Below, one piece after another: positions 44,805-50,244 of a stretch of DNA of 64,000 nt. Below the pieces are notes generated by a model. It was not told where the DNA came from and made no database searches. It was given only the letters and a program-made list of their open reading frames with translations. The translations under genes were made by a program, and so were the position numbers. Each line of letters starts with the position of its first letter. Within the stretch, counting starts at the first letter, position 1. This DNA comes from Puniceicoccales bacterium Verruco_02 (lineage in GTDB: Bacteria; Verrucomicrobiota; Verrucomicrobiia; Opitutales; Oceanipulchritudinaceae): assembly GCA_001604585.1 (NCBI GenBank), contig LVBW01000009.1:1-64000 (forward strand), read 5' to 3'.

Positions 44805-45221
44805 TTGGCCCTTTCTTTCATGAAAATGACGACCCTAGCTGTAAGCACCCCGGAATCCTTCGCCCCTGTGCTCGTCCAGATAGCACTGGCACTGGCAATT
44901 GCCGTTGGCCTCATTGTGGTAAGTCACATCTTCGGCCAGCGACTGCGCAAGAAAAACCCCTACAAGGACATGCCCTACGAGTGCGGCCTGCCCATGCAGG
45001 GAAGTGCGCACCCGCGCTTCAGCGTGAAGTTCTACACAGCGGCCATGTTGTTCATCATCTTTGACATAGAGGTGGTGTTCATGTTCCCGCTCGCCCTTGT
45101 TTATCGGAAGTTGCTCAGCATCGGCGTGCCTATACTTGTCCCTTCTCTCGTATTCATCGCCGTGTTAGTTGTTGGCCTTGTTTACGAGCTTCGCAAGGGC
45201 GCTCTTGAATGGGAACGATAG
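44805..45221 (+). CDS. nuoA: NADH-quinone oxidoreductase subunit A, alone
   Basis: Membrane subunit of complex I: three helices (about 21-41, 78-103, 110-131) with the diagnostic PYECGLPMQGSAHPRFSVKFYTAAMLFIIFDIEVVFMFPLALV. A good ribosome site (AAAGGAG, 44792-44798) is six bases before TTG 44805, so that start is preferred over ATG 44820. The rest of the nuo operon is not next to it; the following gene is unrelated. Terminator-like stem overlaps the stop codon. Confidence 0.93.
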   Translation: MALSFMKMTTLAVSTPESFAPVLVQIALALAIAVGLIVVSHIFGQRLRKKNPYKDMPYECGLPMQGSAHPRFSVKFYTAAMLFIIFDIEVVFMFPLALVYRKLLSIGVPILVPSLVFIAVLVVGLVYELRKGALEWER

Positions 45222-45237
45222 CTTCCCTTATTTTTTT
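45211..45237 (+). terminator. Intrinsic terminator overlapping the nuoA stop
   Basis: A 5-bp stem GGGAA/TTCCC (45211-45215 with 45223-45227) is followed by TTATTTTTTT. The stop codon TAG lies in the loop. The stem is short, but the T-tract is the best in this part of the window. It would isolate the single nuoA gene. Confidence 0.6.
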
Positions 45238-45299
45238 ACAAGGCTTTACCTGCGTTGCGTTTGACCCAGCCCGGCCCCCGGCCTAACCTCTTTGGCAAG

Positions 45300-46658
45300 A
45301 TGAGGCTTGATCGCTACCTCACCAAAACCCGCATAGTCAACATCGAGAGCAGGGACCTCAAGGGTGCCTTGGCCGAGCTGCTTGGGGCGGCTATGAAAAG
45401 CTCCAAACTGCCCTTGGATCGCGACGTGTTGCATGGCGAACTACTCCAGCGAGAGAGCACCATGACCACATACTTGGGCAACGGTGTGGCGATGCCCCAC
45501 ATCAGGGTCAAGATGGACAAACCCTACGTCTTTGCCGTGGGCCGTTGCATCGAAGGACTCTCCGCCGAGGATTCTCGCGAATACCGAGAGGTGCGTCTGT
45601 TGTTCCTGCTGCTCGCTGCCGACGGAGAGCCGAATTATCTAAATGTGCTCGCCTCTTTAGCCAGATTGTTCCGCGAGCAGGCGCTTGTTAACTACATTGT
45701 TGACTCTCCCGACCTCAAGACCCTTCGCGAACGTGCGTTCATGGGCTTTTCGGGCCTAATTGCCAAGCCGGAGAAAAAGCAGGATCGCTTCAACAGGGTG
45801 CTGCTGAAGGAGGGAGAGCGAATCGCGCGCGCTAGTCGCTGTGCAGCCATACTGCTTTTCAGCGACACTTTCACCAACCCGGCTTCGATCAAGGAAGACC
45901 TGCCCCGCTTCCGCACGATACGCATTGCTCGCTCATCGGCCGACAAGCCGCAGGCTGGCACTGTCAAGAGTGACGGGATAATTGAAGTGCGCTCGTATTC
46001 GCGGCAACGGCTGGCCCAGCTGCGCAGCGCAGTCCTTATCGGACTTACGCGAGGACTTTTTAATTATAACGACCGGCTATGTTGCGTGGGCGGAATCCCC
46101 GGCTCCAACCAGCTGGACACCGTATGCGTAATCGACGTGGAGCGGGAGTTTCAGAGCGTGATAACGCGCGAAGATTTGCTGCCGCGCAGTGTGAAAATCG
46201 AGGTAATTGAGCGAATCCTTGGCATTGCGGCAGAGTTGGCCGTTGAGGGGCGCGAAGGCAGACCCGTGGGCAGTCTCTTCGTCGTGGGGGATTCGCAGAA
46301 CGTTAACCAGATGGTTAAACCTCTGGTGTTGAACCCTTTCTACGGCTACCGCGAGGAGGACCGCAATATTCTGAATCCCTTCATGGATGAAACCATCAAG
46401 GAGTATTCCGTAATCGATGGTTGCTTCGTCATCCGTGGCGATGGAGTTGTGGAATCCGCCGGTAGCCTGATCCATGCGCCCAGCCAGTACTATCAGGACA
46501 TGCCAGGCGGCTTCGGTGCCAGGCACTCGGCCGCGGCTGCCATTTCTCGCGCCGCAGACTGCATAGCGATAGTGGTGTCCGCAAGCAACGGTCGCCTGAC
46601 ATTGTTCCGACACGGGGTAATGATGCCGCTTATCGAGAAGCCCATTGGCAGCTATTGA
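45300..46658 (+). CDS. EIIA / PK_C-like / DAC (diadenylate cyclase) fusion protein
   Basis: 452 residues in three parts. 1-150: a PTS EIIA type-2 (PtsN-like) domain with phosphoryl-accepting His in NGVAMPHIRV (H67). About 160-290: an alpha/beta region like the pyruvate-kinase C-terminal domain that precedes DAC in archaeal CdaZ (RVLLKEGERIARASRCAAILLFSDT, GLTRGLFNYNDRLCCVGGIPG). 295-452: a DAC domain of the CdaA/DisA class that makes cyclic di-AMP. The DGA motif reads IDG C (371-375) and RHR reads GARHSAA (406-412); later strands (CIAIVVSASNGRLTLFRHG) are intact. Activity is probable but the two changes matter. Start 45300 (MRLDRYLTKTR). Signal: sugar/nitrogen PTS status could control c-di-AMP. 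Confidence 0.88.
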   Translation: MRLDRYLTKTRIVNIESRDLKGALAELLGAAMKSSKLPLDRDVLHGELLQRESTMTTYLGNGVAMPHIRVKMDKPYVFAVGRCIEGLSAEDSREYREVRLLFLLLAADGEPNYLNVLASLARLFREQALVNYIVDSPDLKTLRERAFMGFSGLIAKPEKKQDRFNRVLLKEGERIARASRCAAILLFSDTFTNPASIKEDLPRFRTIRIARSSADKPQAGTVKSDGIIEVRSYSRQRLAQLRSAVLIGLTRGLFNYNDRLCCVGGIPGSNQLDTVCVIDVEREFQSVITREDLLPRSVKIEVIERILGIAAELAVEGREGRPVGSLFVVGDSQNVNQMVKPLVLNPFYGYREEDRNILNPFMDETIKEYSVIDGCFVIRGDGVVESAGSLIHAPSQYYQDMPGGFGARHSAAAAISRAADCIAIVVSASNGRLTLFRHGVMMPLIEKPIGSY

Positions 46659-47304: not shown

Positions 47305-47635
47305 ATGAAAACGAGACGGAAATTCACGAGCGAGTTCATAAGCAAGGTGGCGCTTGAGGCGCCGCAGGAGCGCGAGCCGATCCACGAGATCGCGAAGCGC
47401 TACCCAGGTCCATCCGGCACAGGTGACCCAATGGAAGAAGGCGCTGCTGGGGGGCGCGGGCAGCGTGTTCGAGAAAGAGAAGGACAAGGGCGATGAGGAG
47501 CTGAAGCGACAGCAGAAGGAAGACTGCCTCTACAAACAGATCGGCCACATGCAGGTTCAGGTGGATATTTTAAAAGAGGTCCATCGCAAGTGTGGCGTCC
47601 CGGTGCAGGAGGACGAGCTTGATCGGCTCGGATAA
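47305..47635 (+). pseudogene. IS3 orfA with one-base insertion
   Basis: MKTRRKFTSEFISKVALEA, then IHEIAKRY in one frame and VHPAQVTQWKKALLGGAGSVFEKEKDK in the next: the expected helix-turn-helix and leucine-zipper regions of orfA. One extra C in the CCC run at 47403-47405 shifts the frame (Y-Q-V-H expected). The second part continues to LYKQIGHMQVQVDILKE. Confidence 0.85.
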
Positions 47636-47958
47636 GCACATGAGCCTCAAGGAGCAATGCGAACTGGTCGGGGTGCCCCGGTCGAGCCACTACTTTCGCC
47701 CGGAGAGCGATCCGAAGGCCGGGGACGAGATGCTGATGCGTGCGATCGACCGGGTGTACATGGAGGAGCCGACGTTCGGAACGCGACTGATGCGCGACGC
47801 GTTGTGCGAGCTGGGCCACCAGATCGGACGGGGCCGTGTGCGTCATATGATGCGTGGCATGGGGATCGAGCCGATCTACCCGACGCCGCGGCTGTGTGGA
47901 GGCGCTGAGGGAGGCCTTGCGCGATACGGGATCCCCGAAATCTTCAACACGGATCACC
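47617..47958 (+). pseudogene. IS3 orfB (integrase) remnant, internal deletion
   Basis: LIGSDKHMSLKEQCELVGVPRSSHYF and AIDRVYMEEPTFGTRLMRDAL, GRGRVRHMMRGMGIEPIYPTPRL match orfB's N-terminal part. The stretch that should hold most of the DDE core is gone; the frame jumps to GLARYGIPEIFNTDH, the region around the second catalytic Asp, and then ends in the palindrome. Not functional. Confidence 0.85.
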
Positions 47959-48007
47959 GAGGTTTCCGCTCCGCTACGGCCTGCGGCCTTCGTTGCGCGG
48001 AAACCTC
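47959..48007. repeat. Palindromic repeat (REP-like)
   Basis: GAGGTTTCCGC (47959-47969) pairs exactly with GCGGAAACCTC (47997-48007) around a 27-base GC-rich centre with further inner symmetry (CCGCTACGGCCTGCGG). It interrupts the IS3 orfB end. Structure and composition are those of REP/small palindromic elements. Only this copy was noticed in the window. Confidence 0.6.
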
Positions 48008-48070
48008 AAAATCATTCTGAACTGAACAAACACCAACAAATAACATCATCAAACAAGGGGAGCCCTCCTG

Positions 48071-48403
48071 TCCAATCCGTCAGACCAGCTCAAGCAGATG
48101 ATCAAGTTCCGCAAGCGAAAGATCATCCTGATCGCGGACAACCTGAAAGTGCATCACCGTACACCGGTTGCGACGTGGTGCGAGGCGAACAAGGAGCGAA
48201 TCGAGTTAGTATTCCTGCTCGCCCACAGCCCGCAGCTTAACCCCGACGAATACCTCAACATCGGGCTCAAACAATATCTCGCCAGCAAGCCGCCGCCGAA
48301 GAACAAGCCTCAGATCGACTCCATGGTAAATGTCTTCATGCTGTTGCTCTCAGCCGTGAAGAAGCACGTTCAGGCTTTCTTCCACTACCCGGACGTAGTC
48401 TAA
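48071..48403 (+). pseudogene. IS630-family transposase, 3' fragment
   Basis: KIILIADNLKVHHRTPVATWCEANKERIELVFLLAHSPQLNPDEYLNIGLKQYL is broken over two lines of the usual IS630 C-terminal half: the second catalytic Asp (IADN) and the last Glu (NPDEYLN) with the HSPQLNP motif. The N-terminal half is missing, starting where the IS3 right end stops. Length is about 110 residues against 340 for the family. Start ATG 48098 is not a real gene start. Confidence 0.85.
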
Positions 48404-49866: not shown

Positions 49867-49956
49867 GGTGGGATGGCAGAGTGGCCGATTGCGGCGGTCT
49901 TGAAAACCGTTGAACCCGCAAGGGTTCCGGGGGTTCGAATCCCTCTCCCACCGCCA
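49867..49956 (+). tRNA. tRNA-Ser(UGA)
   Basis: Class II tRNA with a 7-bp acceptor (GGTGGGA/TCCCACC), anticodon loop CTTGAAA giving anticodon TGA, a long variable arm (GAACCCGCAAGGGTTC), GGTTCGAATCC T-arm, and encoded CCA (49954-49956). Confidence 0.95.
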
Positions 49957-50154: not shown

Positions 50155-50244
50155 GGAGAGATGGCAGAGTGGCCGAATGCGCCTGACTCGAAATCAGGTG
50201 TACCCGCAAGGGTACCGGGGGTTCAAATCCCTCTCTCTCCGCCA
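50155..50244 (+). tRNA. tRNA-Ser(CGA)
   Basis: Acceptor GGAGAGA/TCTCTCC, anticodon loop CTCGAAA giving anticodon CGA, long variable arm (GTACCCGCAAGGGTAC), GGTTCAAATCC T-arm, encoded CCA. It shares the D-arm and T-arm design with the tRNA-Ser 200 bases upstream; together they read UCA-type and UCG codons. Confidence 0.95.

Follow-up and report, generated by a model that had tools for sequence, protein, structure and literature searches.

A conserved EIIA-DacZ_P-DAC fusion protein of Opitutales as a candidate link between the phosphotransferase system, c-di-AMP and potassium balance

The stretch of 64,000 nucleotides analysed here (the window; Puniceicoccales bacterium Verruco_02, GCA_001604585.1, contig LVBW01000009.1, positions 1-64,000, forward strand) carries a dacD-like gene whose product joins a PTS EIIA domain, a DacZ_P domain and a diadenylate cyclase (DAC) domain (Table 1). 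The gene is real and conserved and its class is already listed, the function being without study in the available literature. The best-supported reading, which we hold with moderate confidence, is that the protein, hereafter the synthase, makes c-di-AMP under the control of the PTS and feeds K+ balance, suggesting that the energy state of the cell could be wired directly to potassium balance. The class itself being known, what is new is the circuit around the synthase, comprising EI and HPr without PF02378, an EIIA-antiporter fusion, a riboswitch before a TrkH-family gene and a PgpH-type enzyme.

Table 1 Coordinates of the dacD-like gene, its domains and motifs, and associated features in the window and elsewhere in the same genome
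Feature	Position	Strand	Basis
nuoA (Oxidored_q4, PF00507), directly upstream of the dacD-like gene	44805..45221	+	Pfam
Weak terminator-like hairpin and T-run between nuoA and dacD	45211..45235	+	Sequence scan
dacD-like gene, EIIA-DacZ_P-DAC protein, 452 aa	45300..46658	+	ORF with three Pfam matches; ATG 45300 as start of the family
PTS EIIA domain (PF00359) with H67 (phospho-His position) and R51	45351..45716	+	Pfam, structure match, conservation
DacZ_P (PF21755), a probable sensor domain equivalent to the PK_C-like N-terminal region of CdaZ/DacZ	45801..46154	+	Pfam
DAC domain (PF02457), sole match in the genome	46239..46619	+	Pfam, structure match
D373-G374-C375, corresponding to the DGA motif of DACs	46416..46424	+	Position computed from ATG 45300
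R408-H409-S410, corresponding to the RHR motif of DACs; family-wide RH[AS]	46521..46529	+	Alignment
c-di-AMP riboswitch RF00379, window's genome	C53:115670-115836 (L180:3671-3837)	-	61.7 bits against a cut-off of 38
Antiporter-like protein, 738 aa, Na_H_Exchanger, TrkA_N and C-terminal EIIA	L147:3534-5750 (contig C60, window's genome)		

The Pfam search was performed on a longer ORF opening at an upstream TTG (45255) and, in that numbering, placed PTS_EIIA_2 at residues 36-153 (5.5e-16, 59.3 bits against a cut-off of 27), DacZ_P at residues 183-300 (3e-13, above the curated cut-off) and DAC at residues 329-455 (4.4e-18, 65.4 bits against a cut-off of 27); residue numbers such as H67, R51, D373 and R408 are counted from ATG 45300. 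The proteins of relatives start at the position matching this ATG (MRLDRY..), supporting the coordinates 45300-46658 given in the initial annotation, and its H67, DGC (373-375) and RHS (408-410) lie where it had described them. Its reading of the product as an EIIA / PK_C-like / DAC protein was likewise upheld, all three Pfam domains scoring above their cut-offs. Together with the profile score, the presence of H67 and of the active-site Arg R51 assigns the first domain to the fructose/mannitol/Ntr type of EIIA. An AlphaFold2 model of the synthase made from 37 relatives had a mean pLDDT of 81.5 and a pTM of 0.55, the latter leaving the mutual placement of the domains unsettled. In Foldseek comparisons the N-terminal part of the model resembled PtsN/EIIA-Ntr structures (TM to target about 0.82) and the C-terminal part, with E values of about 4e-7 to 1e-6, resembled CdaA and DisA, so that the DAC fold, whose absence would have spoken against the initial annotation, was found.

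The scheme of DAC classes is reportedly that of Corrigan and Grundling (2013), and a 2023 review by Galperin is said to treat DAC architectures. Among NCBIfam models, DacZ (NF041371) covers the last two thirds of the synthase with 108.6 bits (3.3e-31; below its cut-off of 430), while CdaA (TIGR00159) and DisA (NF010009) reach 23.8 bits against a cut-off of 188.8 and 14.7 bits against 201, respectively, the C-terminal part thus fitting the DacZ/CdaZ proteins of archaea (H. volcanii, M. jannaschii) far better than the CdaA and DisA models. PtsN (TIGR01419) scores 34.3 bits against a cut-off of 138.7, the EIIA being a fused and not a stand-alone domain. The proposed relationship of the middle domain to the CdaZ/DacZ proteins, in which a pyruvate-kinase-C-like fold sits at the N-terminus (PMC6741144), is also borne out. 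Archaeal DacZ differs from the synthase in being without EIIA and in having DACZ_N (PF19294), its N-terminal domain, in place of PF21755, as checked for the Haladaptatus protein; PF19294 was absent from the window protein in the Pfam search. CdaA/DacA proteins of Firmicutes and other Verrucomicrobiota have the DAC fold and the D and RH residues in common with the synthase but, unlike it, possess neither EIIA nor DacZ_P and keep RHR. In a small DAC tree, in which branch support was not considered, the EIIA-bearing proteins stand together, distant from CdaA but close to archaeal DacZ and to bacterial forms without EIIA, as would fit a DacZ-like protein of bacteria having acquired an EIIA domain.

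The claim of the initial annotation that the combination lies outside the known c-di-AMP synthase types had to be given up, as a class DacD with Lacunisphaera, Puniceicoccaceae, Coraliomargarita and Opitutae as example organisms is on record (PMC6741144, 2019) and DacZ_P is a Pfam entry; a new type of architecture is thereby ruled out, the listed Opitutae members belonging to Opitutales. That publication gives neither a description of EIIA nor a function for DacD. The dacD-like gene is present at loci of Lacunisphaera, Opitutus and Puniceicoccaceae, usually with one DAC per genome, in agreement with the lineages listed for DacD; the likeness to this class is one of lineage, the listed organisms being Opitutales. 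The synthase is probably a member of a bacterial DacZ branch (class DacD), a placement that shares the joint confidence of the whole favoured explanation.

In a scan of species genomes, at least 80 full-length relatives with 47-88% identity were found in other genomes; all 80 carry Verrucomicrobiota titles, and most are from Opitutales. DacZ_P was present in 35 of the 195 genomes of the phylum sample, 32 of these 35 being Opitutales. With few exceptions, the sampled Opitutales genomes have a single DAC, which shows the EIIA-DacZ_P-DAC architecture, and the window's genome also contains just one. A control genome of E. coli, which in its laboratory form is not known to make c-di-AMP, gave no DAC match. 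The DACs of other Verrucomicrobiota orders score like CdaA, the type that dominates there. Outside Opitutales, the EIIA form accompanies a CdaA-type DAC in two genomes (G035 and G160), and DacZ_P-DAC proteins without EIIA occur in G114 and as a second gene in G173. No DAC was detected by profile search in two nearly complete Opitutales genomes (G102 and G146).

The suggestion that PTS state could set c-di-AMP levels is sustained as a hypothesis by the phosphorelay genes. The window's genome encodes, besides the EIIA with R51 and H67, one HPr (IHARP, GKSIMGLM) and one complete EI of 600 aa (TIGR01417, 567 bits; GSRTSH at 200-205, Cys520), which has three PEP-utilising domains and, in the Pfam search, no N-terminal GAF part and is thus not of the EI-Ntr type. 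No PTS_EIIC sugar permease (PF02378) was found in this genome by profile search, and of 52 Opitutales genomes 5 have PF02378, against 41 with EI and 44 with HPr; the permease count covers PF02378, as distinct from other EIIC families, and the EIIA count covers EIIA_2, as distinct from the EIIA types PF00358, PF03610 and PF02255. The two EIIA_2 domains of the window's genome are those of the synthase and of the K+/H+-antiporter-like fusion, for which the best NCBIfam match is the K+/H+ antiporter PRK05326, below its cut-off. A similar antiporter-like protein with TrkA_N and EIIA is encoded in G001 (L166:2269-4509). By hand count, 19 other Opitutales genomes contain EI and HPr, no PF02378 that was seen, and the synthase, with H67 kept, as the sole EIIA_2 protein.

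On the output side, the riboswitch lies about 75 bases upstream of a gene for a 451-aa TrkH-family K+ transporter (PF02386, 5.8e-54), and the genome has one more TrkH gene. RF00379 was found in 2 of the 52 Opitutales genomes, the other being G209, where it precedes an APC-type permease; stricter filters were used in this search, so that weak cases may be missed among the 52 genomes. For breakdown, the window's genome encodes a PgpH-type phosphodiesterase with 7TMR-HDED, 7TM and HD domains, its gene being followed by a PhoH-like ORF (named by eye), and PF07698 occurs in 45 of the 52 genomes.

Directly 5' of the dacD-like gene lies nuoA in 71 of the 76 loci that extend far enough to judge, the gap between the genes having a median of 51 bases and often being 4, and one nuoA copy was found in the window's genome. 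The two genes (44805-46658) form a conserved pair across Opitutales, and a link of the synthase with respiratory energy state is possible from this arrangement. A terminator between the two genes was rejected, such sites not being above chance in number and the hairpin with T-run not being shared by the relatives inspected. YmdB, upstream in the window and about 3 kb downstream in 15 other loci, was also dismissed as a conserved partner because its position differs between loci. Further downstream in the window, 47354-48403 contains ORFs resembling pieces of two different transposases, judged by eye to be IS3-like and IS630-like and probably left over from insertion sequences, and two tRNA-Ser genes about 200 bases apart are located at 49867-49956 and 50155-50244 (anticodons tga and cga).

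The DGC and RHS motifs, regarded in the initial annotation as altered, raise the alternative that the DAC domain has lost c-di-AMP synthesis and binds nucleotide or c-di-AMP as a sensor. CdaA indeed has DGA and RHR, and the position following S427, which is acidic in CdaA (SEETG), is Ala or Ser here. However, D373, G374, R408 and H409 are unchanged in all 106 aligned sequences, while position 375 is occupied by A in 89, C in 9, G in 6 and S in 2 of them and position 410 by A in 89, S in 16 and V in one, making Ala or Ser at 410 the state in 105/106. The same freedom at the third position is seen in archaeal DacZ, the Haladaptatus protein having LDGA and RHH, a style close to that of the synthase, while the CdaA-type proteins of the phylum have HDG and RHR; DGC and RHS are thus normal for the DacZ branch. 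Moreover, one member of the DacZ branch, that of H. volcanii, is active (PMC6741144), and a dead cyclase is unlikely because this is the sole DAC in a genome that carries a c-di-AMP riboswitch and a PgpH-type protein. On these grounds a degenerate cyclase was ruled out as a working explanation, and we consider the sensor reading highly improbable. From the domains, motifs, gene inventory, riboswitch and conservation, all read from sequence, we infer catalysis; within the joint confidence of the favoured explanation, the synthase is likely to be an active diadenylate cyclase and the main, probably the only, source of c-di-AMP in the cell.

Whether PTS phosphorylation acts on such an active synthase is a separate matter, as the EIIA could be a structural or docking module on which phosphorylation has little or no effect, with DacZ_P ligands or partners in control. 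H67 is strongly but not absolutely conserved (121/123 aligned relatives), as is R51 (116/123), a degree of conservation that a mere scaffold would not be expected to show, and the genome retains EI and HPr although it has hardly any EIIA_2 besides this one. Yet the EIIA part varies more than DacZ_P and DAC in nearly all relatives, and among 42 Opitutales genomes with known sequence H67 is replaced by Tyr in G197, G218 and G229 (family f55) and by Ser in G149 (family f4), all four of which have EI, indicating that the synthase can dispense with the His. Such replacements despite EI are located at L188, L194 and L201 (G197, G218, G229) and at L164 and L172 (G149, G176). Conversely, H67 is kept in all five genomes without detected EI. 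Retention of the EIIA His thus does not strictly follow the presence of EI, and R51 alone shows a weak trend, being lost in 3 of the 5 genomes without detected EI, those three of 0.9-1.1 Mb, vs 4 of the 37 with EI (Fisher p 0.026, with kinship ignored and one draft only 82% complete). Since H67 is kept in most relatives and lost in two families with EI, its phosphorylation by HPr is plausible, not proven. A structural or docking EIIA, with control lying elsewhere, seems to us rather unlikely. Least probable of all is a reverse flow, in which c-di-AMP or ATP on the DAC domain would control phosphate through EIIA as a phosphate sink or PTS feedback: an EIIA-DAC fusion is symmetric in principle and the PTS of this genome has few other outlets, but no EIIC partner to receive the phosphate was seen (PF02378 absent). 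We know of no precedent for DAC-controlled phosphate flow through EIIA.

In the favoured reading of a PTS-controlled synthase, EI would pass phosphate from PEP via HPr to H67 of the N-terminal EIIA, and the phosphorylation state, relayed via DacZ_P, would set cyclase activity. The c-di-AMP formed would then act on K+ uptake, at least via the riboswitch before the TrkH-family transporter, and would be degraded by the PgpH-type enzyme, while the second EIIA, fused to the antiporter-like protein, would answer to the same relay. From the sequences we infer not only catalysis but also phosphorylation by HPr, EIIA-DAC coupling and its direction. For the direction, our guess, which we think more apt to be wrong than right, is that, as long as EIIA is unphosphorylated, it holds down the cyclase as well as the antiporter and K+ would be taken up and retained, and that phosphorylation releases both. 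A precedent is PTS-Ntr, in which unphosphorylated PtsN binds TrkA and KdpD, and binds and inhibits the K+/H+ antiporter YcgO (PMC13104625); if the two fused EIIA domains followed the PtsN rule, a shortage of PEP would reduce c-di-AMP as well as K+ export, favouring K+ retention. The proposed circuit resembles the PTS-Ntr of Proteobacteria (EI-Ntr, NPr, PtsN) in being a PTS without transport, with a PtsN-type EIIA and K+ transport as output, but differs in its ordinary EI of 600 aa without GAF, in the fusion of EIIA to its targets and in c-di-AMP, which would be inserted as a messenger. More tentatively, the PTS of Opitutales may be mainly a non-transporting relay from PEP via c-di-AMP to K+, with the synthase as the chief EIIA output and a second, EIIA-antiporter output in some species.

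Little is known of the signals by which c-di-AMP synthases are controlled. If true, the proposed circuit would, as far as the available literature goes, be the first in which the PTS is directly and covalently linked to c-di-AMP synthesis, and since the chemistry of its sensor, phosphorylation of a His by HPr, is well understood, the input is testable with standard tools. It would also be a counterpart, arrived at through gene fusion, to the control that PtsN exerts on K+ transport, would explain why EI and HPr are retained across an order with almost no sugar PTS, and would tie carbon and energy status to potassium balance in one protein.
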